Shown here: one piece after another, positions 12,642 to 48,949 of the stretch
Numbering within the stretch: the stretch's first letter is position 1
How the letters are laid out: the number at the start of each line of letters is the position of its first letter
Source: Gemmatimonadaceae bacterium
GTDB lineage: Bacteria; Gemmatimonadota; Gemmatimonadetes; Gemmatimonadales; Gemmatimonadaceae
NCBI GenBank assembly: GCA_019186945.1
Contig: JABAQJ010000007.1
Coordinates: 1 to 64,000 of the forward strand
DNA length: 64,000 nt
Reading direction: 5' to 3'
Program-made: the position numbers and the translations under genes
Notes under the pieces: generated by a model
What the model was told of the DNA's origin: nothing
What the model saw: the letters and a program-made list of their open reading frames with translations, nothing else
The model's database searches: none

Positions 12642-13349
12642 GCCGCAAGCTGATGTGCGCGCGAGTCAAATGAAAGAATCGGTTCGGGAGCGGGCATGAT
12701 GAGCGGACACGGCTGGAGCGTGAGATGCGCCCCAGCCGTGTGTTGCGCTACGCCGGCCACTTTCCCAACCGCCAACAGCCCCTATGTCGTTCGGGTGGCC
12801 AGCTTCCCCTCTTTCCCTCCCGTCCCCGCCCTTCCTCACGTGAGCTCCCATCCCCACAGCCCGTCCGATGTCGACGGGGATGGGGCACGATACGCCAGCG
12901 CCATTCTCCGACCGGCCATCCACCCGCCCGTCTTCCCGCCCCCCCCTTCCTCCCGACGCTCGACCCGACCCGGTGCGTCCCCGAAGCACTCCTCGCCCCA
13001 TCCCCAGTCCGACACGAGCTTCGCGAGCACGCACAGGATGTCAGGACCGGATTCTCCTGGACACTCGGGCAAACCCTAGTCCCAAGGAATGAGAGCTCTC
13101 TGATGGATTGCGTCGATCCGGCCGGCGAAACGTCACGACCGGTATGGGACGTCCGCTTCGGCGCTGGTTCACGGGCCTTGCCGACTGCCGAGCGTCATCG
13201 GGCCGCAGTGGCGTCGAGAGTGTTTTCGGACCACGGAATTGGCTGGCGCGCTTGCAGGTAACCCCTGCTAGCGCATGCGCCGCCACGTTGTCTTAATTTC
13301 CGGACTGCTCAGCGGTACTGCGGCATCCACCCTTTGCATTCCACCGAAT
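12642..13349. other. Divergent intergenic region between glpD and the VPS10 gene
   Basis: About 700 bases with no credible gene. It holds an inverted repeat at 12707-12741 and pyrimidine-rich stretches on the plus strand around 12800-12960 (runs of C and T with few purines). It must contain the promoters for glpD and the VPS10-type gene, but I could not identify convincing -35/-10 pairs. Confidence 0.6.
12707..12741. other. Inverted repeat upstream of glpD
   Basis: ACACGGCTGG at 12707-12716 pairs perfectly with CCAGCCGTGT at 12732-12741 around a 15-nt centre. It lies 66 bases upstream of the glpD start, where an operator or leader hairpin could act. It does not follow any gene end, which argues against a terminator. 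Confidence 0.45.
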
Positions 13350-16300
13350 ATGACGTCGCGGTCGGTTCTTCTCTCTCGTTCGGCGCTTGCGCTTCTTGCC
13401 ACGATCGGCCTTCCCGCGCGCGGGACTGAAGCTCAGGCAACCAGCCGTCCTGCGGCGGCTCGGCCCGTACAGCCAGCGCCGACTGGTCCGTTGACGTTCG
13501 ATTCGTCCGCGTTCCTGGCTCTCAAGTGGCGCGCGATCGGTCCGAATCGAGGTGGTCGATCGGTTGCCGTGGGGGGCTCGGTGCTGCGGCCGATGGAGTA
13601 CTGGATGGGGACGACCGGAGGAGGTGTCTTCAAGACAACTGACGGCGGCGTCAACTGGTCGCCAGTGTCGGACAACTATTTCGGAGGTACGATCGGCGCG
13701 ATCGCCGTCGATCAGCAGAATCCGGATATCGTATGGGTTGGCGGTGGCGAGACGGACATCCGCGGGAACACGGCACCGGGCGATGGGCTGTGGAAGACCG
13801 GGGATGGCGGCAAGACGTGGACGTTACTCGGCTTCAAGGACGAGCACATATCCACGATACGCATTCATCCCACCAGCTCGAACACGGCTTATATCGGGGT
13901 GTTCGGGAATCCGTTCAAGGCTGGCACGGAACGCGGCCTGTATCGCACGACGGATGGCGGGAAGACCTTCCAGAAGATCCTGTACAGCAACGACTCCACC
14001 GGCGTGATCGACATCGCCATGGATGCATCGAATCCGCAGGTGATGTACGTGGCGATGTGGCAGGCGTATCGGACGCCATGGTCCCTCTCGTCGGGTGGCG
14101 TTCACAGCGCCATATACAAGACCAGCGATGGCGGGACGAGCTGGGTGAATCTGAGCGCCACGGCGAAGGGGCTGCCCAAAGGGACGTTAGGCAAGATCGG
14201 TCTGGCGGTCTCGCCGGCCAAGGCGAGCCGCGTGTGGGCGATCATCGAGCACGACTCCGGTGGCGTGTACCGATCGGACGATGCTGGAGCGACGTGGCAG
14301 TATCTGAACCAGGACCGGAAGCTGCGGCAACGTGCCTGGTATTACTCGCAGATCTACGCCGATCCCACGGATACCAACGTCGTCTACGTCCTCAACGTGC
14401 AGTTTTTCCGGTCGCGCGATGGAGGCAAGACGTTCCGAGAGCAGATCAATGCGCCGCACGGAGACAACCATGATCTCTGGATCGCGCCGAACGACCCGCT
14501 GCGGATGGTCGAGGCCAACGACGGGGGCGCGACGGTATCCGTGAACGGTGGCCGTACCTGGACCGACCAGGACTTCGCGACCGCCCAGTGGTATCACGTC
14601 AGCACGACGAACGAATGGCCGTACAAGGTCTGTGGCGCACAGCAGGACAATTCCACGTTGTGCGGACCGAGCCGCAAGGAAGGCGGCATCACGATGGCGG
14701 ACTGGCAGGACGCCGGAGGCGGCGAATCCGGATATGTCACGCCGCATCCCACCAAACCGTACATCGTGTTCGCCGGAAGCTACGGCGGCCTGCTGACAAG
14801 GAAGGACATGCGCACGGGCTTTTCGCGCGACATCACGATTTATCCCATCAACCCGATGGGTCACTCGTCGGAAGACATCAAGGTGCGGTTCCAGTGGACC
14901 TTCCCGATCGTCTTCTCGCGCCACAACCCGAACGTGCTGTACGCGGCTGGTTCGGTGCTCTTCCGCAGCCTCAACGAGGGCGAGAGCTGGACGCAGGCGT
15001 CGCCCGAACTCGCGCGTCGCGATCTGCGCACGATGGGCGCGAGCGGTGGCCCGATCACCAAGGACCAGACCGGCGTCGAGACCTATGCCCTGATCTTCGC
15101 GTTCGACGAATCGCCGTTGCGCGCCGGTGTCCTCTGGGCGGGCACCGACGACGGGTACGTCTGGGTGTCGCAGGACAACGGAGCACACTGGGAGAACGTG
15201 ACGCCGAAGGACATAGGCGACTTCACCCGCATCTCGATCATCGAACCGTCGCACTACGTCGCCGGTGGCGCCTACATAGCGGCGAATCGTTACCAGCAGG
15301 GCGACAAGGCCCCGATCCTCTACAAGACGACCGACTACGGCAAGACGTGGACGAAGATCGTCGACGGCATTAAGGAAGACCACTTCACGCGCGTCATCCG
15401 CGAGGATCCCGTGCGGCGCGGGCTCCTCTATGCCGGTACCGAGCGTGGCGTGTATGTGTCGTTCGACGATGGTTTGAACTGGCGGTCTCTTCAGAGAAAC
15501 CTCCCGCCGGTTCCGGTTCATGATCTGACGCTCCGGGACGATGACCTGATTGCCGGAACGCACGGCCGTGCCTTCTGGGTCATGGATAACGTCTCACCGC
15601 TCCGGCAGGTTGCGGCTCCGGCGCTCGACAGGATCGCACATCTGTACAAGCCAGTGGATGCCGTCCGCACGGATTGGGGTGGCGGGTTTTTCGCCCAGCT
15701 GTTCGGTACTGGAGGCAACAACCCGCCCAGCGGAGCCGTCGTCTACTACAACCTGAAGTCCGCGAACCAGAAGGTGCAGCTCGAGTTCCGCGACGCCGCC
15801 GGTGCCGTGATCAAGTCGTTCACCAGCGATCAGGATCCGGCGACTCAGGCGGACTCCCTGCGCATGGAAGCGGCCAAGGCGCAGGCGATCGACTCCCTGA
15901 CCCGCAACGGCTGGTCCCGCGACTCGGCAACGAAGAGCGTTACCGCCAGGTACGCGGATCCAGCGGCCAGGATGGAAGGGGTCGATTTCGAGGCCATGGC
16001 CTCGCAGGGGCCGCGCCCGCCTCGCGTGCCTAACAAGGCAGGGCTCAACATGTTCGCGTGGGACCTGCGATACCCGGATGCCGTTCGTTTCCAGAACATG
16101 ATCATGTGGGCGGGGACGGTCGAGGGCCCGGTCGCGCCACCGGGAACGTACAGTGTGCGGATGACCGTGAACGGCGGCGAGCCGCAGACGCAGGTGTTGC
16201 GCGTGAAGAAGGATCCGCGATCGGAAGCCACGGACGCCGACCTGCAGGCCCAATTCAAGCTGCTGATCGCCATTCGCGACAAGGTCACGGAGGCGAACAA

Positions 16301-16730
16301 CGCCGTGCGCACGGTGAGGAACATGCGCTACCAGGTGGGCGATCGCACGGGGAAGCTGACGGGAAGCCAGAAGCAGGAGTTCGAGCAGATCGCCGGCCAG
16401 ATGATGACGGGCCTCACGGGCGCCGAGGAAGAGATCTACCAGACGAAGAACCAGAGCTCGCAGGACCCGCTGAACTTCCCCATCAGGCTGAACAATCAGA
16501 TCGCCGCCCTGACGGGAACGGTGTCGTCCGGAGACTACCGGCCGACCAAGCAGGCGCTGGAAGCGTTCGGTCTGTTGAGCAAGGAACTGGATGTGCAGCT
16601 GGCGGCAGCGAAGAAGTCGATGGATGATAACCTGGCCCGCCTGAACGCCATCCTGCGGGCCGCGGGTCTGGACGAGCTGAAGCCGAGCACGGACGAAATC
16701 AAGCCGCAGAAGCCTGACGTGGCGATGTAA
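13350..16730 (+). CDS. VPS10/sortilin-type BNR beta-propeller protein, copy 1
   Basis: 1126 residues with a signal peptide (MTSRSVLLSRSALALLATIG). It contains many Asp-box/BNR motifs of the form TDGG-TW, for example KTTDGGVNW, RTTDGGKTF, KTTDYGKTW and VSFDDGLNW, forming one or more propellers over the first ~780 residues, followed by a helical C-terminal region. The start at 13350 aligns with the start of its paralogue at 45566; the frame could extend to 13275, but that segment has no ribosome site. Proteins of this type are abundant in Gemmatimonadota and Bacteroidota, have no established enzymatic role, and are often annotated only as glycosidase-like or sortilin-like. Likely exported. Confidence 0.88.
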   Translation: MTSRSVLLSRSALALLATIGLPARGTEAQATSRPAAARPVQPAPTGPLTFDSSAFLALKWRAIGPNRGGRSVAVGGSVLRPMEYWMGTTGGGVFKTTDGGVNWSPVSDNYFGGTIGAIAVDQQNPDIVWVGGGETDIRGNTAPGDGLWKTGDGGKTWTLLGFKDEHISTIRIHPTSSNTAYIGVFGNPFKAGTERGLYRTTDGGKTFQKILYSNDSTGVIDIAMDASNPQVMYVAMWQAYRTPWSLSSGGVHSAIYKTSDGGTSWVNLSATAKGLPKGTLGKIGLAVSPAKASRVWAIIEHDSGGVYRSDDAGATWQYLNQDRKLRQRAWYYSQIYADPTDTNVVYVLNVQFFRSRDGGKTFREQINAPHGDNHDLWIAPNDPLRMVEANDGGATVSVNGGRTWTDQDFATAQWYHVSTTNEWPYKVCGAQQDNSTLCGPSRKEGGITMADWQDAGGGESGYVTPHPTKPYIVFAGSYGGLLTRKDMRTGFSRDITIYPINPMGHSSEDIKVRFQWTFPIVFSRHNPNVLYAAGSVLFRSLNEGESWTQASPELARRDLRTMGASGGPITKDQTGVETYALIFAFDESPLRAGVLWAGTDDGYVWVSQDNGAHWENVTPKDIGDFTRISIIEPSHYVAGGAYIAANRYQQGDKAPILYKTTDYGKTWTKIVDGIKEDHFTRVIREDPVRRGLLYAGTERGVYVSFDDGLNWRSLQRNLPPVPVHDLTLRDDDLIAGTHGRAFWVMDNVSPLRQVAAPALDRIAHLYKPVDAVRTDWGGGFFAQLFGTGGNNPPSGAVVYYNLKSANQKVQLEFRDAAGAVIKSFTSDQDPATQADSLRMEAAKAQAIDSLTRNGWSRDSATKSVTARYADPAARMEGVDFEAMASQGPRPPRVPNKAGLNMFAWDLRYPDAVRFQNMIMWAGTVEGPVAPPGTYSVRMTVNGGEPQTQVLRVKKDPRSEATDADLQAQFKLLIAIRDKVTEANNAVRTVRNMRYQVGDRTGKLTGSQKQEFEQIAGQMMTGLTGAEEEIYQTKNQSSQDPLNFPIRLNNQIAALTGTVSSGDYRPTKQALEAFGLLSKELDVQLAAAKKSMDDNLARLNAILRAAGLDELKPSTDEIKPQKPDVAM

Positions 16731-34719: not shown

Positions 34720-35325
34720 TCAATCCACGATCGCTCCCCGGATGATGCCCTCGAGCGTGGTCGCGTATCCGGCGATCAACGCAGCCTGGTCCACACCGTT
34801 GATGATGCGGCGCGCGTTCCGGTAGTCGCAACCTTGTGCGCCGATGTAGTCTGCCAGCTTCTTCCCGGTGAACGATCCGTTTCGCATCCCGTGCGACATG
34901 ATCCGATAGGCAATCATCGGTCGCAGTGCCTGATCGGGATCGTCCTCCAGGTTCTGGTCCGGACCGAGAGCAAGTGCTCTCGTAAGACGGGCATAATTGG
35001 CGCGTCCCGTGATCTGTACGTAGCCGCGTCCGCGATACCGGAAACCATCACCAGGCTGCGTGTTCCCGAGTCGTTTCCCGATAGGTGTCCCGGTCTCGTA
35101 TTTCTTGAAGTAGTCTTTCTTGCCGAATTCGGTAATGGGCATCCATCTGTTCGCGCACTCGTGTTTTACGGTCGCGAGCATGTACGCGGCCCACTGGACA
35201 TTTCTGAGGTCCGGATCTTCCTCCATGTTCCGGCCCAGCAATTCCAGGCCGTTAACGGTATCCTGCGATAGCTTGCCGTACGCGTCGCGATAGCCGTTGA
35301 AGAACTTCGTGTGATCGATCCGCAT
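34720..35325 (-). CDS. GH19-like peptidoglycan/chitin hydrolase without signal peptide
   Basis: 201 residues of the glycoside-hydrolase-19/lysozyme fold. The catalytic Glu is in ATVKHECANRW, and the conserved substrate-side motif is YRGRGYVQITGRANY, with an Asn-Tyr-like ending. There is no signal peptide or membrane segment. The ATG at 35325 has a GGAGG upstream and is the clear start; the frame extends to 35379, but that part overlaps the upstream gene. Such genes are typical of phage endolysins or effector proteins. It sits 13 bases after the DUF1176-like gene. Confidence 0.85.
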   Translation of the reverse strand: MRIDHTKFFNGYRDAYGKLSQDTVNGLELLGRNMEEDPDLRNVQWAAYMLATVKHECANRWMPITEFGKKDYFKKYETGTPIGKRLGNTQPGDGFRYRGRGYVQITGRANYARLTRALALGPDQNLEDDPDQALRPMIAYRIMSHGMRNGSFTGKKLADYIGAQGCDYRNARRIINGVDQAALIAGYATTLEGIIRGAIVD

Positions 35326-35338
35326 CGTTCCTCCCTGT

Positions 35339-36007
35339 TCATTGAATGGCGATCGGCTTCCATCCGGCAGGCGGTTCACCCACCTTCGGTTCGGCGCGCG
35401 GCCCAGGATCGGCTGGGCAGGTCACTCGTTCGGCGCCTGCGGTCAACACGAGCGAGCCGTCGTGGAACTCGTAGCGCCCCCACGTCCCGCAGTCGCCAAT
35501 CTGCCGTGCGAGCGTGAGGATGGTGAGCGTCCGATGGTCCAGCATGGTGATCTCACCGGTGACTTCCGCTTCACGTGCTCGCGTCAGCGACTTGCCGTCG
35601 AGCGAGGCAAGCGTCTCCAGTTCGAGCGCGGATGCGACAGGCGTCGCACCACGCTCGTCCAGCAGCAGAAGGGTACTGGATGGCTGATACGCCCCTCCCG
35701 CGCAACGCACGATGACGAGTGAACGCCCGGGCTCCAGTTCGACGAACTTGAGGCCGCCGTCGTCGGTCACGCGGGTTGCATCGAAGGCTTCTTCGCAGGG
35801 GGCGGGCCAACGCAGCTGCCGGTACCACCGCGCGCGATCGGCGACCGACACGTCAAGCCGTGGTGGCAGTGTTGCAGGTGACGACGCTCCCTGGATCGAG
35901 TCGGTGCGCACGCTTTCGCCGCTGCTGCTGCAAGCAACGGTGAGAACAGCGAGCACCGCGACTATTGCCAGCGGAACCGGCCGGTACCAGCGAGACGTGT
36001 GGCTCAC
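35339..36007 (-). CDS. DUF1176-like lipoprotein
   Basis: 222 residues with a lipobox (VLTVAC) after a hydrophobic start. The mature part has paired cysteines (PAPCEEAF, VIVRCAGGAY, IGDCGTWGRYEF, ERVTCPADP) in the order seen in DUF1176 proteins, which are periplasmic and of unknown function. The start is GTG. It precedes the GH19-like gene by 13 bases. The adjacency could mean a lysozyme and a wall-associated or protective lipoprotein, but no lysozyme-inhibitor motif is recognised. Confidence 0.75.
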   Translation of the reverse strand: MSHTSRWYRPVPLAIVAVLAVLTVACSSSGESVRTDSIQGASSPATLPPRLDVSVADRARWYRQLRWPAPCEEAFDATRVTDDGGLKFVELEPGRSLVIVRCAGGAYQPSSTLLLLDERGATPVASALELETLASLDGKSLTRAREAEVTGEITMLDHRTLTILTLARQIGDCGTWGRYEFHDGSLVLTAGAERVTCPADPGPRAEPKVGEPPAGWKPIAIQ

Positions 36008-37825: not shown

Positions 37826-40312
37826 TCAGCCGATTCGCGGTTTGACGCCTTTGACGTTGAAGAGCGTTCCCACGCAGGCTCCGGGGCTGGCCATCCCAGT
37901 GGCGGCCCGGAGAATCAGGTTGAGGTCAGCGCCGTCCAGTCTGTTGTCGCAGTTCGCGTCACCCCGCGGGTACGGCGACAGCGGTGTCACGTCCACGCCG
38001 ACGAGCGCGAACTGAAGTACCAGTGCGTCGTTGGCGGTGATGAAGTTGTCGCCATCCACATCGCCGCGAAGTACGGCGGTCGAGGGGCCGACCTTGTAGG
38101 CGAACATGCCGCGCCCGTAGGTCGATGCGATGACCGTCGTCGTAGAGGGAACGTACGCGAGGTCGTACACGACCGTGTTGGGCAGGCCCGGTGGTCCGGC
38201 CGTCCATGAGGCGCCACCGTTGCTCGTCTGCATGACGCCGTACTCGGCGCCCACCATCAGTGTAGTCGAACCGGGGATGAACAACGCCGCGTGGACGGGG
38301 ATGTTCTGGAGGTTCGCGGAGAGGTTGGTGAAGAAGCTCGCCCCACCGTCGTGCGTCTCAGTGATCTTGGGAGCAGAAAACGTCGATGCTGTTCCGATCG
38401 CGTGGAGCGGATTGATCGGATCGACCACCACCCTTGTGAAGTATCGCTGAGTGCCGAAGACGAACTGGGTGTACGAGAGCCCGCCGTTTTGCGTGATGGA
38501 GATTACGCCGTCGCTGCTCGCCGTGTAGATGACGTTGCGGTTGGATGGCGCCACGGCGATGCTGGTGATGTAACCCGAGCCACGCGTGAGATCGCCGGAG
38601 ATCGCGGTCCATGAGGCGCCGTCGTTCGTCGTCCGGTAGAGCCGATGCGTGCCGAAGTACAGCGTCGTTGGGATCACCGGATCGATCACGAGCGGCCGGC
38701 GCACGCCGCTCCGGTCCTGGAAATTGATCCCGTTGGATCGGTCCTGCGCCGGCTGCGTCGCGGTCTTGCGCTGGATGAAGTTCATGAACGCGTGCGTGAC
38801 GTAGACCGTGCCGGGATTCGCGTAGTTCACGACTGTGTACCCGCCGTCTCCCATACTCGCGAAGTTGTTCCAGATGCTGGAGCCGCTGAAGTATGCCGCC
38901 TGGTTGTCCTGCAGGCCGCCGAATACCCAGAGTCCGGACGGGTGGACCGAGATGCCGGGGTAGAATTGCGCGATTGCGAGGCCGTTGTTCTGTGCGCGCC
39001 AGTTGCGACCGCGGTCGAACGAGACGTAGAAGCCGCCGTCGGTTCCGGCGTACATCAGATCCGGATCATTGCGATCGAACGTCAAGGCGTGCCAGTCGAC
39101 GTGCACCGTCCTGGCCGCGCTCTTGAAGGAATTGCCGCCATCTTCCGACGCGAAAGCGCCAACAGCCGCCACCCAGATGCGATTGGCGTTGCGCGGGTCG
39201 ACAGCAATGACGAGGTCGTATTCGCCTTGTTCCGACAGGGTGAACGGGTAGGCGTTGGGGCTGGTCACCAGTCCCGAGGCCGGGAGCGGCGTCCACTGCA
39301 GCGTTCGCTCGTCCCAGCGCGACAGGCCGGCGAACTTGCGGGTATTGAGGTCCGCGGAGAAGGCGAACAGGAGGTCCGGCTCCGATGCCGATACCGCCAG
39401 CTCCATCCGTGCGACCTGCGTCTGGCTGATCAGTGGCGTGGGGAGCATGGTCCACGTCAGCCCGCTGTTGGTTGTGCGGAAAACCGTGGTATAGGGAAAC
39501 CGATTGGTGGCCGCCGTCGATGCGTAGAACATGCCCGGTCGACCGGGGACGGAGACGACACTGTACGAGAGGCCGCTGAGGCGCTGAGACCAGGACGCAC
39601 CACTGTTGAACGAGACGAAGACGCCGGCATCGGTGGCGGCCATGATCGTCGTGGACGTGGGCGATCCTGCGGTCGATTCGTCGATCGCCAGACGGCCATG
39701 GAACCGGACGTTAGCGCCTAACGAAGTCGCAGCCCATGAATTACCGCCATCCATGGAGCGGAGCACGCCGCATCCCGGAAACTCGAACGTGTTGAGCTCG
39801 CCGGTCCCAGCGTAAACCAGGTTGGGATTCACGGGATCGACCGTCACCGCGCCGATGCCCGGTGCGCACTGATTGTCCGATAGCGGTGTCCACGTGCCGC
39901 CACCGTTCACCGTTCTCCACACGCCGCCGCTGGCGGCGCCCACCCAGACGATGCGGGAATCGGTCGGGTGAACGGCGATCGACGTGATACGCCCGGAGAC
40001 GAGCTGGCCGATCCCACCGAAGTTCACCTGATTTCCGAATAGCCCCGTGGGGCCGATTGACCGCCAGGCGGCATCGGCAGCGGGACCGATCTCCGCTGGC
40101 CGCAGGGTATTCCATGCGCTCCATGCCTTCGTCCACGCATCGGGGGCGATGAAGCCCGACGGATCCGCACGAACTTCACGGAACGCGCGAACGCGCGTCT
40201 TGACGTCGTCGCCCTCGGACTCCCTCTGTTGTGCAGCGGACCCGGTCGGCCACACGACGAACGACAGCGACGACAGGCACGCCATCAGGCGAAACGGGAG
40301 GTGGCGAGTCAT
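37826..40312 (-). CDS. Secreted BNR propeller protein with C-terminal dockerin
   Basis: 828 residues with a signal peptide (about 1-27, ending in SAAQQ). About ten Asp-box/BNR repeats are visible (for example SMDGGNSW, SFNSGASW, TTNSGLTW, SFDRGRNW, TTNDGASW), arguing for a sialidase-like propeller; no sialidase arginine triad was found. Residues 750-803 form a dockerin-like double F-hand: loop 1 (GDVDGDNFITANDA) has acids at 751, 753, 755 and 762; loop 2 (GDANCDNRLDGAD) at 785, 787, 789 and 796. Both calcium loops are intact. It overlaps the TIG gene by four bases and is last of a four-gene operon. Role as a cargo docked on the surface is inferred. Confidence 0.88.
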   Translation of the reverse strand: MTRHLPFRLMACLSSLSFVVWPTGSAAQQRESEGDDVKTRVRAFREVRADPSGFIAPDAWTKAWSAWNTLRPAEIGPAADAAWRSIGPTGLFGNQVNFGGIGQLVSGRITSIAVHPTDSRIVWVGAASGGVWRTVNGGGTWTPLSDNQCAPGIGAVTVDPVNPNLVYAGTGELNTFEFPGCGVLRSMDGGNSWAATSLGANVRFHGRLAIDESTAGSPTSTTIMAATDAGVFVSFNSGASWSQRLSGLSYSVVSVPGRPGMFYASTAATNRFPYTTVFRTTNSGLTWTMLPTPLISQTQVARMELAVSASEPDLLFAFSADLNTRKFAGLSRWDERTLQWTPLPASGLVTSPNAYPFTLSEQGEYDLVIAVDPRNANRIWVAAVGAFASEDGGNSFKSAARTVHVDWHALTFDRNDPDLMYAGTDGGFYVSFDRGRNWRAQNNGLAIAQFYPGISVHPSGLWVFGGLQDNQAAYFSGSSIWNNFASMGDGGYTVVNYANPGTVYVTHAFMNFIQRKTATQPAQDRSNGINFQDRSGVRRPLVIDPVIPTTLYFGTHRLYRTTNDGASWTAISGDLTRGSGYITSIAVAPSNRNVIYTASSDGVISITQNGGLSYTQFVFGTQRYFTRVVVDPINPLHAIGTASTFSAPKITETHDGGASFFTNLSANLQNIPVHAALFIPGSTTLMVGAEYGVMQTSNGGASWTAGPPGLPNTVVYDLAYVPSTTTVIASTYGRGMFAYKVGPSTAVLRGDVDGDNFITANDALVLQFALVGVDVTPLSPYPRGDANCDNRLDGADLNLILRAATGMASPGACVGTLFNVKGVKPRIG
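37904..38065 (-). other. Dockerin-encoding segment
   Basis: This segment encodes the two calcium-loop repeats (residues 750-803) of the propeller protein. Each loop has acids or Asn at positions 1, 3, 5 and 12 of the loop and an aliphatic residue at 8, as in established dockerins. The short PYPR linker between the two repeats is present. Confidence 0.8.
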
Positions 40313-40791
40313 GGCAGCACCTTGAATGAAATCGAATTGCTGACGCCCGCGGCGGTGGTTACGCGCACGGGATAGGATCCCGGCATCAGAGGTCGTGGTG
40401 GCGCCTCCGACTGCCCGGTGACCCGATCGGGGATGACGAACCGGATTTCCGTGCCGGTCTCGTTCGCCGGGACCGCCGTTAGGCGGACGGGCCCGAGTTC
40501 GACAACGTTGCGCCCAGGTGTGCCGGGTTCGAACCCACTGCCGCGAATCAGGACTTCTACCACGCTGTTGCGTGGCACCGCCGCGGAGTCGGGAACGAGC
40601 TCTGAGATCCGGAGCGCGCTCGAGGGTCGCTCCGGCGCCGGTGGCGGCGGCGACTGCGACGACGGCGCTGTCGCCGTCGAGTCATCGACCCGGATGCCAG
40701 CATCCTGGTCGTTGCGCGGAACGCGCGCACAGGCCAGCACGCCGGTGAGGAGCAGAACTTGCCATCGATGCATCCGCCAGGTCATCACCAT
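40309..40791 (-). CDS. IPT/TIG-domain lipoprotein
   Basis: 160 residues. A lipobox (LTGVLAC, Cys21) is followed by a Ser/Pro/Ala-rich linker (to about residue 57), then one immunoglobulin-like IPT/TIG domain (residues about 58-159) with the typical VLIRGSGFEPGT loop and YPVRVTTAAGVSNS strand. Such domains are structural and often bind partners at the surface. It overlaps both neighbours by a few bases, so its synthesis is coupled to the cohesin lipoprotein upstream and the dockerin protein downstream; a spacer or stabilising subunit is possible. The first Met codons at positions 1, 3 and 7 are alternatives. Confidence 0.85.
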   Translation of the reverse strand: MVMTWRMHRWQVLLLTGVLACARVPRNDQDAGIRVDDSTATAPSSQSPPPPAPERPSSALRISELVPDSAAVPRNSVVEVLIRGSGFEPGTPGRNVVELGPVRLTAVPANETGTEIRFVIPDRVTGQSEAPPRPLMPGSYPVRVTTAAGVSNSISFKVLP

Positions 40792-41312
40792 GCCCCTCCG
40801 ATGAGGGAGGCGCCAGGCGTAACGCGTCGCAGATCCTCCCGATCGATCGCGTGCAGTTCGTCGAACGTCACCGCCAGCCCTTCCGAGACGTTGTTGGCGA
40901 GTGCGGTGAACCGCACGGCAACCAGTTTCCCGCCGGCGAATCCTCGCTGCGCGATTCCGGCCATACGCACCTGGCCGTCCTGTGGATTAAGGACGCGCAC
41001 GGCTCCGTCGCCAGGATCCTGTTCGCGAACGAAACGCAGCCGCAACGGGTCGTAGTGGAGTCGAGCGGTGAAGCTGGCGATCGGCTGCACTTCCGGTCCG
41101 GCATCCACGCGAACGAGCACGACAACGTCGTCACCCACCCGTGGCGTCGCAGTCGATATGATCAGGTGGGACTCCACGGCGCTCCCGCTCACACGTGCGA
41201 GCGGTTGCTCGGCGGGCATGTTGTCCCGGCAGCCGCTTGCGGCCGCTGCCGTCAGCAGCACGACCAGACACGATCGTGCGAGTGGCAGGCGCCCTGACGA
41301 GTGCGTTGTCAT
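40785..41312 (-). CDS. Cohesin-domain lipoprotein
   Basis: 175 residues. The signal ends in a lipobox (AAAASGC, Cys28), so it is probably membrane-anchored. Residues ~46-160 fit a single cohesin: strand pattern VGDDVVVLVRVDAG, the diagnostic FTARLHYDPLRLRFV strand, and KLVAVRFTALANN followed by a final LAVTFDELHAID. Cohesins bind dockerin double F-hands. The next-but-one downstream gene encodes exactly such a dockerin, on the same overlapping transcript. Its start overlaps the stop of the Ig-repeat gene (ATGA). I do not know whether this pair binds; the match of partners in one operon is the main argument. Confidence 0.85.
   Translation of the reverse strand: MTTHSSGRLPLARSCLVVLLTAAAASGCRDNMPAEQPLARVSGSAVESHLIISTATPRVGDDVVVLVRVDAGPEVQPIASFTARLHYDPLRLRFVREQDPGDGAVRVLNPQDGQVRMAGIAQRGFAGGKLVAVRFTALANNVSEGLAVTFDELHAIDREDLRRVTPGASLIGGAW
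40833..41177 (-). other. Cohesin-encoding segment
   Basis: This encodes residues 46-160 of the lipoprotein. It has the alternating hydrophobic strands, the YDP-containing third strand and the final aliphatic strands expected of a nine-stranded jelly-roll cohesin. The assignment rests on pattern only. Confidence 0.75.
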
Positions 41313-43231
41313 CGGAAGGTCACCGGGAAAGACGTGGAAGTAATCAGTGGCATGAGATCGAACCCATCGAGCGAGAAGCCGTCGATGGCAGTGATATTGA
41401 CGAACATCGTGGTTCCGGCTGCGCCGCCCGTGAACTGGACGCGTCCGAACGTGACTGGCGCCGTATTCCCGGGACTGACAGCGATGCTGAAACGGAATAC
41501 GTTAGGCGTCGGTTCGTTGATCACCACGCCGGCGCCCGGCGCGCTGAGGGCCACGACGGTGCCGTTGAACGTCGCCGTTTCATAGAAGACGGTCACGAAC
41601 ACGCTCATCGTCGAAACGGGCGTACCTCGCTGGTCGAGCGTCAGGTCGATGATCCCCGGCGCGTTCGCCTTCGCGTACAGATCGCTCAGACTCGCCCGCA
41701 GGACCGGCCCGGCACCCGTTCGCGTGACTATGATGAGTACCGAATCCGCGCCACTCGGCAGGCTCGACACGATCCATGCCTGTCCCTCGTCCTGGGCGGT
41801 GATGCGCCCCGCGATGTCCACGCTGGCGCGCGATGGCGCGCGCGAGATGAACGCGGGTGGCATACCGGCGGACAGCGTCGGAGTCGTCGTGCCGCCAGCG
41901 TCAAGGATCTGGATCTTCTGGCCTGCCGTCCCGTAGAGCACGGCGACGAGAGTGAAGCGGGATGACGTCACCGGCGGAACGCCCGGCGCGGAGAACGTCA
42001 ACTCGCGATCGCCGACCGAACCGAGGACGATCAGGTTGGCGAAGGCGGCGCTGCCATTGCTGGAGTTGACGGTGCCACCCGTCACCACGCCGCCGCCAAA
42101 CGATACGCTGGCTGTTACCGGTGTCGTCGCGGTCGTTGCGAGATTGCCGCTGATATCGCGCAGTTCGAGGACCGGCGGCGTCAACAGGAGTGCGCCGATC
42201 GCACCGCCGACCGGCTGTGTCGTCAGACGCATCTGCGCCGGCGCTCCGGGTGCCAGATCGAAACTCGCGGTGGTCACTCCGGTCAGACTCGGTGCCGTAA
42301 ACGAAAGCGTTCGTGGCCCGATGGTTCCCGTGAGCGTGAGACCGGCAAACGTCGCGACACCGGAAATGGTGTTGACGACCGGTAGGCCCGTGAGCAAGCC
42401 GCCACCACTCGCCAGCGCCACGGTGACGGTGGCTGACGCGGTTGCCACAAGGTTGCCGCCGAGATCCTGGATCTCGACTACCGGCTGTGACTGGAATGGA
42501 GCTGCCACCGCCGCTCCGCCAGGTTGAGTGCGCATCGCCAGAGACGTTGCAGCGCCGACGGCGAGCGAGAAGGCGCCCGACGTGGCAGCGCCGAGCGTGC
42601 CCGAAGTGAACCGCAGCGTCCGATCTCCTGTGCGTCCCACCAGAGTCAGTCCGGTGAAAGTGGCAACGCCGCCGACGGCGTTCACGGTACCGTTGCTGAG
42701 CGTACCACCTCCCGTCTGGATCGTCGCAGTAACCGCGAGAGTGGACCCGGCCACGAGGTTACCCGCGGCATCGCGGACTTCCACAACGGGCTGGATCGTC
42801 AGAGGCACGGCGACGACGGCGCCGCCGGGCTGGGTGCGCACTGCCAGCGCGGCGGGCGCACCCGGTGTCACGTTCACAGTCAACCCCATCGACGTCAGGC
42901 CGGCCGTGGACGCCGTAATCGTGGCAATGCCAACGCGTGACGCAGTGATGACGCCGTTCTGCACGCTTGCGACGTTGGCATCGGAACTGGCCCAGGCGAT
43001 CGAGAAACCGCTCAACTGCCGTCCGTCGCTCGTGAGGACCGTCGCAGTCAGCGTCGCCGTCGCTCCCGATGCCAAGGTCACTGCACCCGTCTGTGACAGC
43101 ACCACGGATGCGGGATTGTTGTTCTGTGGCGGACCAGTGGTCTTGTCGCTGCCACCACCGCAAGCGCCCGAGACGAGTACGGTGAGAACGGATACGGCAA
43201 TGCGTCGGAACGAGGCTGAACGTTCTGGCAT
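41309..43231 (-). CDS. Large Ig-repeat lipoprotein (Big_2 plus three ~102-residue repeats, cohesin-like C-terminus)
   Basis: 640 residues. The lipobox (VLVSGAC, Cys24) follows the signal. A Big_2-type domain spans about 41-122, then three repeats of ~102 residues at 123-225, 225-327 and 328-430 share motifs such as TQPGGAVVA, VVEVRD--GNLV and GVATF-GLTL. A linker region (431-505) follows. The last ~135 residues (PGIIDLTLDQRG, TMSVFVTVFYETATF, VTFGRVQFTGGAAGTTMFVN) resemble a divergent cohesin. The chosen ATG at 43231 starts a proper signal; the frame is open to 43501 but that part is not signal-like. First gene of the four-gene operon. Confidence 0.85.
   Translation of the reverse strand: MPERSASFRRIAVSVLTVLVSGACGGGSDKTTGPPQNNNPASVVLSQTGAVTLASGATATLTATVLTSDGRQLSGFSIAWASSDANVASVQNGVITASRVGIATITASTAGLTSMGLTVNVTPGAPAALAVRTQPGGAVVAVPLTIQPVVEVRDAAGNLVAGSTLAVTATIQTGGGTLSNGTVNAVGGVATFTGLTLVGRTGDRTLRFTSGTLGAATSGAFSLAVGAATSLAMRTQPGGAAVAAPFQSQPVVEIQDLGGNLVATASATVTVALASGGGLLTGLPVVNTISGVATFAGLTLTGTIGPRTLSFTAPSLTGVTTASFDLAPGAPAQMRLTTQPVGGAIGALLLTPPVLELRDISGNLATTATTPVTASVSFGGGVVTGGTVNSSNGSAAFANLIVLGSVGDRELTFSAPGVPPVTSSRFTLVAVLYGTAGQKIQILDAGGTTTPTLSAGMPPAFISRAPSRASVDIAGRITAQDEGQAWIVSSLPSGADSVLIIVTRTGAGPVLRASLSDLYAKANAPGIIDLTLDQRGTPVSTMSVFVTVFYETATFNGTVVALSAPGAGVVINEPTPNVFRFSIAVSPGNTAPVTFGRVQFTGGAAGTTMFVNITAIDGFSLDGFDLMPLITSTSFPVTFR
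41942..42865 (-). repeat. Three tandem Ig-like repeats
   Basis: Three in-frame units at about 42865-42560, 42559-42251 and 42250-41942, each ~306 bp, encode residues 123-225, 225-327 and 328-430 of the lipoprotein. The pairs share Gly/Thr/Val-rich strand motifs and a conserved G-ATF-GL core. Divergence between copies indicates old duplication. Confidence 0.75.
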
Positions 43232-45273: not shown

Positions 45274-45565
45274 GCTATTCCGTACCGATGGAGAGTGGGA
45301 TTAAGCCTGGTGAATGGGAAGCGAAGAGGCCCTGGCTGGCCGTCGGCTGGAATTGCGTGGCGGCCCTCGATTCATCTTCGCGTCGATAGATCCCCATGCA
45401 GGCGGTTGCTGCCGTCGTGGGGAAAGTAGCCTCGTGCACTGGCAGCCGGGCATCCTGCCCGCGGGTTCAACCATTTTTGTCGCCAGCAACGAATGCCCGA
45501 ATGACGTATGTTCGTGGGCGACGCTCCCCCCACGATCAACTCAGCACGACGTCCCTGGAGGTTCC

Positions 45566-48500
45566 ATGCGCTCGCGTCACCAGTCGCTGGCCAGTATCCC
45601 ATTGTCCTTCGGGCTCGCTTTTCTGACGGGCATTGCTCCATTGAGCGGTGCGGCCGGACAGCGTCCCACAACGCAGACCGGTGTGCGCGCTTTGCAGCCG
45701 GCGCCGGCTGGACCAATCGTATTCGACACTACGCTCTTTGCCTCGATGCGGTGGCGCGAGATCGGACCCGCACGCGGCGGGCGTTCGGTCGCCGTGGCCG
45801 GTTCCGCGCAGCGCCCGTACGAATACTGGATGGGCACCACTGGCGGTGGCGTCTACAAGACCGTGGATGGCGGCATGAACTGGCAAGCGGCCACCGACGG
45901 CTATTTCGGCGGCACCATTGGCGCGATCGAGGTCGATCCCACGAACGCCGACGTCGTGTGGGTGGGAGGAGGCGAGACGGAGATTCGCGGCAACACGTCG
46001 TCCGGCGATGGTCTATGGAAGACAACGAACGCCGGCCGTACCTGGACGATGCTTGGCTTTCGCGACGACTACATCTCTACCATCCGCATCGATCCCCGGA
46101 ACCCGCAGGTAGCGTACATCGGCGTGTTTGGCGACCCGTTCAAGTCCACGCAGGCGCGCGGGCTTTTCAAGACCACCGATGGCGGTCGCACATTCGACAA
46201 GGTCCTGTACCTGAACGATTCGACCGGCGTGATCGACGTCGCGTTGGATCCGTCGAATCCTCAGGTGCTTTACGTCGCGATGTGGCAGGCGTGGCGCGCG
46301 CCGTGGGGGATGTCCTCGGGCGGCATCCACTCCGGTTTGTACAAGAGCACCGACGGCGGTGCGACGTGGGTCAATCTGACGAAGACTGCGGCTGGTTTGC
46401 CACGCGGCATCCTGGGCAAGATCGGCGTGGCAGTGTCGCCGGCGAATCCGAACCGTGTCTGGGCGCTCGTCGAGCACGACTCGGGTGGCGTCTACCGATC
46501 GAACGATGCCGGAGCCACGTGGACCTATATCAACCGGGAGCGGAAGTTGCGTCAACGTGCCTGGTACTACACGCAGATCTTCGCGGACCCGAAGGACACG
46601 AATGTCGTCTACGCGCTCAACACCGGGTTCTATCGATCCCGTGACGGAGGGAAATCGTTCCCGGAGTCGCTCAATCCGCCGCATGGTGACAATCACGATC
46701 TGTGGATTGCCCCCAACGACCCGATGCGGATGGTGAACGGCAACGACGGCGGCGCCAACGTGTCATTCAACGGCGGCCGGACATGGACGGACCAGGAGTT
46801 CCCGACGGCGCAGTTCTATCACGTCTCCACGACGAACGAGTTTCCGTACCGGATTTGTGGAGCGCAGCAGGACAACACGACGTTGTGCGGCCCGAGCCGC
46901 AAGCAGGGGCCGATCATCCGTGCCGACTGGTACGACGCGGGCGGTTGCGAATCCGGTTACATCGCGGCGCATCCGCTCAAGCCTAACGTGACGTTCGCCG
47001 GGTGTTACGGAGGCAACCTGGATCGCAAGGATCGGACGACGGACTTCACGCGGGATGTGACGGTGTATCCGCGTAACCCGATGGGACATTCGTCGGAGGA
47101 CATCAAGGTTCGTTTCAACTGGACGTTCCCGATCGTGTTCTCGCGCCACAATCCCGGCGTGCTGTATGCGGCTGGCTCGCAGCTCTTCCGGTCGACGAAC
47201 GAGGGCGAGAGCTGGACGGCCGTGTCCCCGGAGCTTGCCCGACGCGACCCGAAGACCATGGGTGCCTCTGGTGGACCGATCACGAAGGACCAGACTGGCG
47301 TGGAAACGTACGGGATCATCTTCACGTTCGAGGAGTCCCCGGTAACGCCAGGGCTTCTCTGGGCGGGCACGGACGACGGCTGGGTCTGGATCTCGCGGAA
47401 CAACGGCGTGTCGTGGGACAAGGTAACCCCTCCGGACATCGGCGACTTCACGCGGATCTCGATCATCGAACCGTCGCGATATGCTGCCGGCACGGCGTAC
47501 CTTGCAGCGAATCGATACGCGTTAGGCGACAACCGTCCGCTCCTGTACAAGACCGTGGACTACGGGAAGACGTGGACCAAGATCGTGAACGGCATCGCGA
47601 ACGACCACTTCACGCGTGTGATCCGCGAGGATCCCGTGCGCCGCGGGCTGTTGTTTGCCGGGACCGAACGTGGCGTGATGGTCTCGTTCGACGACGGCCT
47701 GAACTGGCGGTCGGTGCAACGCAATCTACCGCGAGTACCGGTGCACGACATTGCCATCAAGGACAACGACGTCATCGCCGCGACGCACGGGCGGTCGTTC
47801 TGGGTTCTGGATGACATCAGCGCCTTCCGGCAGATCACGCCCTCGGCGGTAGCGCGAGAGGCATTCCTGTTCAAGCCGGTGGATGCCGTGCGCACCCAGT
47901 GGAGCGGCGGTGGCCCGGGTGGAGGTGGCGGGGGAGCGGGCTTCGCCGGTGCCAACCCGCCGTCTGGTGCGGTGATCCAGTACTACGTCAAGCAGCCGAA
48001 CCAGCGTGTGAACCTCGATTTCCTCGATGCGCGTGGTGAAACGATCCAGAGCTTCACCAGCGACCAGGAACCCGATTTCGCCGCCGACAGCGTGCGGCGG
48101 GAAGCTATTCGTTCCCAGCGCATCGATTCGCTGGTTCGGCGCGGCATGACGCGGGACAGCGCCGAGCGTATGGTGCCGTTCACGCGCGCTGGCGGTTCCG
48201 CTGGGGGTGACGACGACTCGCCTCGCCGTGCTCCACGGCCACGCGTTGCCAACCGGGCGGGCCTCAACACCTTCGCCTGGAACCTGCGATATCCGGATGC
48301 CGTTTCGTTCGACAACCTGATCATGTGGGCGGCCAGCACGACCGGGCCGGTGGCGCCGCCGGGCACCTACTCGGTGCGGATGACCGTGAACGGCGGAGAT
48401 CCGCAGACGCAGACGTTCCGGGTGCGGAAGGATCCCCGCTCAACCTCGACGGACGCGGACATACTCGAGCAGTTCAAGCTCATGATAGCCATCCGCGACA

Positions 48501-48949
48501 GGACGACTGAGGCCAACAACGCCGTGCGCATGGTCCGCAACATGCGCTGGCAAGTCGATGAACGCACCGGACAGCTCCCAGCGGACAAGAAAGGCGAGTT
48601 CACGTCGATCGCCACCGGGATGGTCGACAAGATCACAGACAACGAGAGAGCCGTCTACCAGACGCGGAACGAAAGCAACCAGGATCCGCTGAATTTCCCC
48701 ATCCGGCTGAACAACGAGATCGCCGGAGTCGCGAGCTACGTTGGCCAGGGCGAATATCGACCGACGAAGCAGGCGTACGAGGTGTTCAACATGCTCTCGA
48801 AGGAACTCGATGTGCAGTTGAAGGCATTGAAAGGGACACTGGATGCCGACCTGCCACGGCTCAACGCGATTCTCCGGGCTGCGGGATTGCAGGAATTGAA
48901 GCCCAGCACCGAGGAGCCGAAGAAGAACCGGCCCAACGTGGCGATGTAG
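45566..48949 (+). CDS. VPS10/sortilin-type BNR beta-propeller protein, copy 2
   Basis: 1127 residues with a signal peptide (MRSRHQSLASIPLSFGLAFL). The body repeats the Asp-box layout of the 13350-16730 paralogue nearly motif for motif (KTVDGGMNW, KTTDGGRTF, RSNDAGATW, VSFDDGLNW), and the C-terminus ends PSTEEPKK, parallel to PSTDEIKP. A Gly-rich insert near residue 790 is peculiar to this copy. A GGAGG four bases before the ATG fixes the start. The two paralogues stand ~32 kb apart with no synteny between their flanks. Function unknown; exported. Confidence 0.9.
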   Translation: MRSRHQSLASIPLSFGLAFLTGIAPLSGAAGQRPTTQTGVRALQPAPAGPIVFDTTLFASMRWREIGPARGGRSVAVAGSAQRPYEYWMGTTGGGVYKTVDGGMNWQAATDGYFGGTIGAIEVDPTNADVVWVGGGETEIRGNTSSGDGLWKTTNAGRTWTMLGFRDDYISTIRIDPRNPQVAYIGVFGDPFKSTQARGLFKTTDGGRTFDKVLYLNDSTGVIDVALDPSNPQVLYVAMWQAWRAPWGMSSGGIHSGLYKSTDGGATWVNLTKTAAGLPRGILGKIGVAVSPANPNRVWALVEHDSGGVYRSNDAGATWTYINRERKLRQRAWYYTQIFADPKDTNVVYALNTGFYRSRDGGKSFPESLNPPHGDNHDLWIAPNDPMRMVNGNDGGANVSFNGGRTWTDQEFPTAQFYHVSTTNEFPYRICGAQQDNTTLCGPSRKQGPIIRADWYDAGGCESGYIAAHPLKPNVTFAGCYGGNLDRKDRTTDFTRDVTVYPRNPMGHSSEDIKVRFNWTFPIVFSRHNPGVLYAAGSQLFRSTNEGESWTAVSPELARRDPKTMGASGGPITKDQTGVETYGIIFTFEESPVTPGLLWAGTDDGWVWISRNNGVSWDKVTPPDIGDFTRISIIEPSRYAAGTAYLAANRYALGDNRPLLYKTVDYGKTWTKIVNGIANDHFTRVIREDPVRRGLLFAGTERGVMVSFDDGLNWRSVQRNLPRVPVHDIAIKDNDVIAATHGRSFWVLDDISAFRQITPSAVAREAFLFKPVDAVRTQWSGGGPGGGGGGAGFAGANPPSGAVIQYYVKQPNQRVNLDFLDARGETIQSFTSDQEPDFAADSVRREAIRSQRIDSLVRRGMTRDSAERMVPFTRAGGSAGGDDDSPRRAPRPRVANRAGLNTFAWNLRYPDAVSFDNLIMWAASTTGPVAPPGTYSVRMTVNGGDPQTQTFRVRKDPRSTSTDADILEQFKLMIAIRDRTTEANNAVRMVRNMRWQVDERTGQLPADKKGEFTSIATGMVDKITDNERAVYQTRNESNQDPLNFPIRLNNEIAGVASYVGQGEYRPTKQAYEVFNMLSKELDVQLKALKGTLDADLPRLNAILRAAGLQELKPSTEEPKKNRPNVAM

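Follow-up and report, generated by a model that had tools for sequence, protein, structure and literature searches.

A conserved operon of Gemmatimonadota that probably encodes a dedicated, lipid-anchored cohesin-dockerin complex outside the cellulosome

The window analyzed here is a 64,000-nt stretch of DNA (positions 1-64000 of contig C2) from a 3.95-Mb genome of the Gemmatimonadota, soil bacteria that are not known for cellulosomes. On its minus strand lie four open genes (43231-41309, 41312-40785, 40791-40309, and 40312-37826), each of which overlaps its successor, by 4, 7, and 4 nt in turn. Overlaps of this kind are the usual sign of translational coupling, and the original prediction of four minus-strand genes with overlapping stops and starts thus describes the operon correctly. 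Elsewhere in the window, an ORF at 34720-35379 (minus strand) resembles, on visual inspection, a chitinase or endolysin of GH19 type; a Pfam search of this ORF returned no match at E<=0.001.

The second gene of the operon (40785-41312) encodes a lipoprotein of 175 aa with a lipobox (AAASG followed by CRD) at residue 28. Its residues 51-165 (40818-41162) match the Pfam Cohesin family PF00963 and score 30.5 bits, above the cut-off of 24.1. When a profile built from seven relatives of this protein was searched against the PDB, three sequences were matched, all of them cellulosomal cohesins. The gene had been read as a cohesin lipoprotein from the start, and both searches agree with that assignment.

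The first gene (41309-43231) encodes a larger lipoprotein of 640 aa with a lipobox (VLVSGA followed by C) at residue 24. It was initially described as an Ig-repeat lipoprotein, a description that is supported by Big_2 matches in three relatives, but the window protein itself has no Pfam Ig match above the cut-off. More consequential is a second cohesin domain at the C terminus of this protein (41312-41710), which the original prediction overlooked when it counted a single cohesin. Alignments of relatives reveal that the last ~133 residues form a conserved domain. The window version has no Pfam match and thus does not reach the PF00963 cut-off, and it is therefore termed here a diverged, cohesin-like domain on the strength of its predicted fold and its profile matches.

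Several lines of evidence support this designation. Pfam Cohesin matches occur in 2/16 homologues of the domain (best 6.5e-11), and at more distant loci (L012-L014) the gene in the position of the Ig lipoprotein ends in a recognizable cohesin. By hhalign, the window domain matches the cohesin domains of these relatives at E 1.9e-6, and those domains in turn match the cohesin lipoprotein at E 9.5e-14; a direct profile comparison of the window domain with the cohesin lipoprotein is weak (E 1.1e-3, 21% probability). At other loci (L062-L064, L067, L068, L086, and L087), one and the same C-terminal domain is matched by both cohesin profiles. An AF2 model of the window domain (pLDDT 84.5, pTM 0.77) has nine strands, and its 16 best Foldseek matches in the PDB are all cohesins, headed by 2jh2 (E 3e-6, TM 0.70), a non-cellulosomal cohesin of Clostridium perfringens. 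Given this support from fold, profile, and the Pfam matches of homologues, the operon has two cohesins for its one dockerin.

Of the 47 cohesin ORFs at the surveyed loci, 42 have a lipobox, as do most of the ORFs that encode an Ig-cohesin. Among the cohesin lipoproteins (window and L009-L090), C-x-[DE] stands directly at the lipobox cysteine in 37/42, a pattern that may act as a signal for lipoprotein sorting. Most of the Ig-cohesin lipoproteins carry C-G-G in its place.

The third gene (40309-40791) encodes a small lipoprotein with a proline linker and a TIG-like beta domain at its C terminus. It had been named a TIG lipoprotein, a claim for which Pfam offers no support: the window protein has no match to TIG (PF01833) or any other family at E<=1, and seven relatives have none at E<=0.01. 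The family is nevertheless conserved among relatives by profile search. In three loci, the TIG-like domain of this family is fused to a cohesin (L059:4712-5560, L060:8668-9480, and L072:8529-9632), and these fusions support membership of the small lipoprotein in a common complex, in which it would be an accessory component.

The last gene (37826-40312) encodes an 828-aa protein composed of a tandem beta-propeller of GH74 fold (VPS10/BNR family) and a C-terminal dockerin. Its N-terminal signal peptide looks cleavable and ends in A-A before Q, with A-Q invariant at the expected site. The secreted BNR propeller foreseen for this gene is borne out by Pfam, by the structural model, and by Foldseek, in which the 25 best matches of the model are GH74 enzymes aligned over 744-842 columns, almost the full length. 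The closest named relatives come from Gemmatimonadetes/Gemmatimonadaceae MAGs (contig scan with a five-sequence BNR alignment). Two other large VPS10/BNR propeller proteins are encoded in the window, at 13275-16730 and 45314-48949 (both plus strand), and neither has a dockerin.

These structural matches raise the question of whether the operon encodes a small cellulosome, in which the propeller would be a working GH74 xyloglucanase displayed for the digestion of plant polysaccharides. The protein does have the tandem seven-bladed propellers that characterize GH74, and the cellulosome of Clostridium thermocellum is known to include a GH74 enzyme that bears a dockerin. However, where GH74 enzymes have the catalytic base aspartate of the ARTDIGG motif (D60 of PoGH74, changed to A in 6mgl), the window propeller aligns GAASGG, and this aspartate is likewise missing from 18/18 aligned homologues. 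The match to NCBIfam F510_1955 also falls below its cut-off. Moreover, with one dockerin per genome no multi-enzyme assembly would form, and neither a multi-cohesin scaffoldin nor a large set of dockerin-bearing enzymes is found in this genome, which has two cohesin proteins and one dockerin. We accordingly consider a small cellulosome very unlikely.

Because the base aspartate is missing, activity as a GH74 enzyme is considered unlikely, and we regard the propeller as GH74-like in fold but outside the active GH74 family. Three other motifs (VHxDWH, QDN, and GDGG) show complete or almost complete conservation among the aligned homologues, and the invariant QDN may, by alignment, retain the other GH74 catalytic aspartate. 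It is likely that the propeller has an activity other than that of GH74 or serves in binding.

The dockerin (type I) occupies residues 748-808 (37889-38071) and has two complete calcium loops, D-V-D-G-D-N-F-I-T-A-N-D and D-A-N-C-D-N-R-L-D-G-A-D, both of which are intact on inspection. With PF00404, the match is slightly below the cut-off in the protein scan (residues 750-800, 19.9 bits versus 22.9) and above it in the genome scan (37913-38065, 24.2 bits). A dockerin profile made from the loci of the phylum survey matches it at 4e-23, and 14/18 homologues have a dockerin match at E<=0.001. In the model of the protein (pLDDT 83.9), residues 760-770 and 794-804 form the two helices of the dockerin. 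Hence the C-terminal dockerin with both calcium loops that was originally proposed stands, and the loss of its fold, which had been named as grounds for abandoning the idea, is not seen.

In the alignment of homologues, Cys788 in the second calcium loop and Cys813 shortly after the dockerin are invariant and could, judging from the sequence, form a disulfide that closes the domain. A dockerin-like double loop is also visible by eye at the end of a homologous propeller from Planctomycetota (L098:1272-3689; GDMNGDGRVDGADI, GDLDGNGELNGADI), near which no cohesin was seen.

Scans of the whole genome with profiles and PF00404 place its one cohesin lipoprotein, its one Ig-borne cohesin, and its one true dockerin inside the operon, with no further copy of the Ig-borne domain, no other cohesin lipoprotein, and no other convincing dockerin. 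Two additional dockerin candidates, C1:576738 and C1:575728, were rejected as half motifs in ORFs of 334 and 317 aa, the former of which matches M15 peptidases. A search of the genome with PF00963 was blank even for the known cohesin, which is a limit of that method and not an absence, given that the profile search recovered it. The confinement of both cohesins and the sole true dockerin to one operon agrees with the proposal of a dedicated pair.

The arrangement extends well beyond this genome. Three further genera of the family show the identical succession of Ig-cohesin, cohesin, (small lipoprotein), and propeller-dockerin, and in about 20 Gemmatimonadota genomes or loci the set of Ig-cohesin, cohesin, and propeller-dockerin is kept in this order. 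Conservation of gene order in relatives had been suggested as a check on the prediction, and the order is indeed retained among relatives whose BNR proteins are just 36-63% identical.

To survey the phylum, a profile of the cohesin lipoprotein was built irrespective of dockerins, and it detected this protein in 74/394 genomes, with a patchy distribution and with many of the genomes being fragmented MAGs. Around these matches, 40 stretches were taken; E-values of the local profile scans refer to 10,000 sequences. One match (G015, locus L015, E 6e-4) contained an internal stop and was removed as a spurious cohesin. Among the 43 Gemmatimonadota loci with a strong match (E<1e-8), 40 have a dockerin gene near the cohesin lipoprotein, always on the same strand (40/40) and within 1 kb in 36 cases.

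Since the dockerin profile behind the 40/43 count came from these loci, a cleaner test is provided by PF00404, which scores above its cut-off in 20/20 cohesin-positive genomes versus 2/20 negatives (Fisher p about 3e-9, an indication only, as relatedness is ignored). In G073, one of the two exceptions, a diverged cohesin adjoins the propeller-dockerin of locus L092, which makes this genome a missed positive. Cohesin-positive genomes usually have one to three dockerins each, roughly one per genome, nearly all of them near a cohesin. By hand count, 23 of the 26 above-cut-off dockerin matches in the 20 cohesin-positive genomes, a number that excludes three half-motif matches, are no more than about 10 kb away from a cohesin match.

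Cohesin and dockerin folds might be present without binding each other, the dockerin acting as a calcium-stabilized cap or binding some other ligand and the linkage reflecting another shared function. Such a scenario draws on the weak correlation between cohesin and dockerin distances (Mantel r 0.27, noisy with so small a dockerin, compared with 0.88 for Ig-cohesin and propeller), so that co-evolution of specificity is not evident. Yet nearly every dockerin in the family adjoins a cohesin despite very different cargo, and propellers without a cohesin neighbor are also without a dockerin: at the 75 propeller loci examined away from these operons, local profiles found neither module, although the propeller of L098 ends in the dockerin-like double loop noted above. 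We therefore consider this scenario very unlikely.

The cargo of cohesin-linked dockerins includes a subtilase, beta-helix proteins, an invasin/Big adhesin, and, with a dockerin detected by the local profile, a metalloprotease-like protein. Some loci (L012, L051-L053, L055, L072, L086, and L087) encode cohesin and dockerin in one polypeptide, with up to several such genes in succession. Polypeptides of this kind could chain or branch a complex. Exchange is also apparent on the propeller itself, because members of its family from Bacteroidota end in a T9SS type A sorting domain and those from Acidobacteria in Soli_cterm. Given these swaps of dockerin, T9SS, and Soli_cterm tails, it is simplest to see the C-terminal module as an address or anchor, a role that in Gemmatimonadota would fall to a dockerin docking onto lipid-anchored cohesins.

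We consider it probable that the operon encodes a dedicated, non-cellulosomal, lipid-anchored cohesin-dockerin complex. This proposal draws on what sequence, fold, and genome comparison show: the domains, the coupling of the genes, the retention of their order, the almost one-to-one association of cohesin with dockerin in the genome, and the exchange of C-terminal modules. According to this mechanism, two predicted lipoproteins would present cohesins, one on a stalk of Ig repeats and the other near the membrane. The calcium-loaded dockerin would bind one or both of them and keep the propeller at the cell envelope, most likely on the outside of the outer membrane, where it might bind or process a glycan or a protein. 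The ratio of one dockerin to two cohesins within the operon is not a simple one-to-one match and counts against this explanation, as do the patchy distribution within the phylum and the weak correlation of cohesin and dockerin distances.

The dedicated surface complex of the original prediction has two parts, of which the dedicated pairing is upheld by copy number and linkage. A lipobox cannot distinguish surface from periplasm, and for this reason the surface location is only something we infer. Should the outer membrane carry the lipoproteins in its inner leaflet, or should they reside in the inner membrane, an equally real complex would hold the propeller inside the envelope. The sequence provides only lipoboxes and a signal peptide and no proof of export past the outer membrane, and it is to this extent compatible with a periplasmic complex. 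Nonetheless, the T9SS sorting domains on the Bacteroidota propellers specify the surface or the outside as destination, and a cargo of proteases, adhesins, and beta-helix proteins also fits an outside location. A periplasmic complex is thus given a small though appreciable chance.

Repeats 1 and 2 of the dockerin, which resemble LRGDVNxDGxVNAxDALLIQQALVG and GDANCDGxLDAxDALIVLRxAVG, respectively, stay distinct in most homologues. With two distinct dockerin faces and two different cohesins in the operon, a three-part clamp is conceivable, in which the stalk-borne and membrane-near cohesins would hold one two-faced dockerin simultaneously, or alternately during delivery, on a phylum-wide platform with exchangeable cargo. 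We offer this clamp as speculation and think it unlikely.

Catalogues have long listed non-cellulosomal cohesins and dockerins as scattered domains whose use is unclear. Here, gene order and strand, translational coupling, and copy number all link the partners across a phylum and with varied cargo. The anchored complex favored above thereby turns a vague question about the purpose of non-cellulosomal cohesins and dockerins into a testable one, namely whether they form a self-contained plug-and-socket anchor in Gram-negative bacteria. The plug-and-socket chemistry of the cellulosome appears to have been reused as a general means of anchoring secreted proteins at the envelope. The operon is also a source of new cohesin-dockerin pairs for protein display.

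No paper on a dockerin in Gemmatimonadota was found in a literature search that covered few subscription papers, and none of the papers that mention both dockerin and Gemmatimonadetes has the operon as its subject according to title or abstract. The initial statement that no system with this exact set had been described agrees with these searches, while the general use of cohesin-dockerin systems outside the cellulosome is known. Within the literature covered, we judge the modules to be known, and the combination of paired cohesin lipoproteins and dockerin cargo in one operon, together with its phylum-wide pattern, to be new.

The clostridial cellulosome shares with the operon the PF00963 and PF00404 families, an anchored cohesin protein, a secreted dockerin protein, and even a dockerin protein of GH74 fold. 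In contrast to its scaffoldin cohesins, enzyme-borne type I dockerins, and cell-surface anchors, the Gram-negative Gemmatimonadota use single-cohesin lipoproteins, about one dockerin per genome, and cargo other than cellulases. Their operon couples cohesin and dockerin, lacks a multi-cohesin scaffoldin, and has no cellulose-binding module that we could see.

In C. perfringens, non-cellulosomal cohesin-dockerin complexes join partners that are both glycoside hydrolases (PMC12997984). Single cohesins outside a cellulosome are common to both systems, and the Ig-borne cohesin is structurally nearest to 2jh2 and 2vo8. The Gemmatimonadota cohesins differ in residing on lipoproteins without a recognized enzyme domain, encoded in the same operon as the dockerin protein. 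Non-cellulosomal cohesins and dockerins also occur in archaea, including Archaeoglobus fulgidus and ANME, and some ANME proteins join dockerin and cohesin (PMC9012536) as some Gemmatimonadota relatives do. The A. fulgidus cohesin 2xdh is among the fold matches of the Ig-borne cohesin, although a lipoprotein operon of such make-up is not described for these archaea and the cargo differs. Finally, the Bacteroidota BNR/VPS10 propellers resembling the "F510_1955 glycosylhydrolase" are homologous to the window propeller, but T9SS type A C-terminal sorting takes the place of the dockerin. The proposed dockerin anchor of Gemmatimonadota might correspond in function to the T9SS tail of the Bacteroidota propeller.
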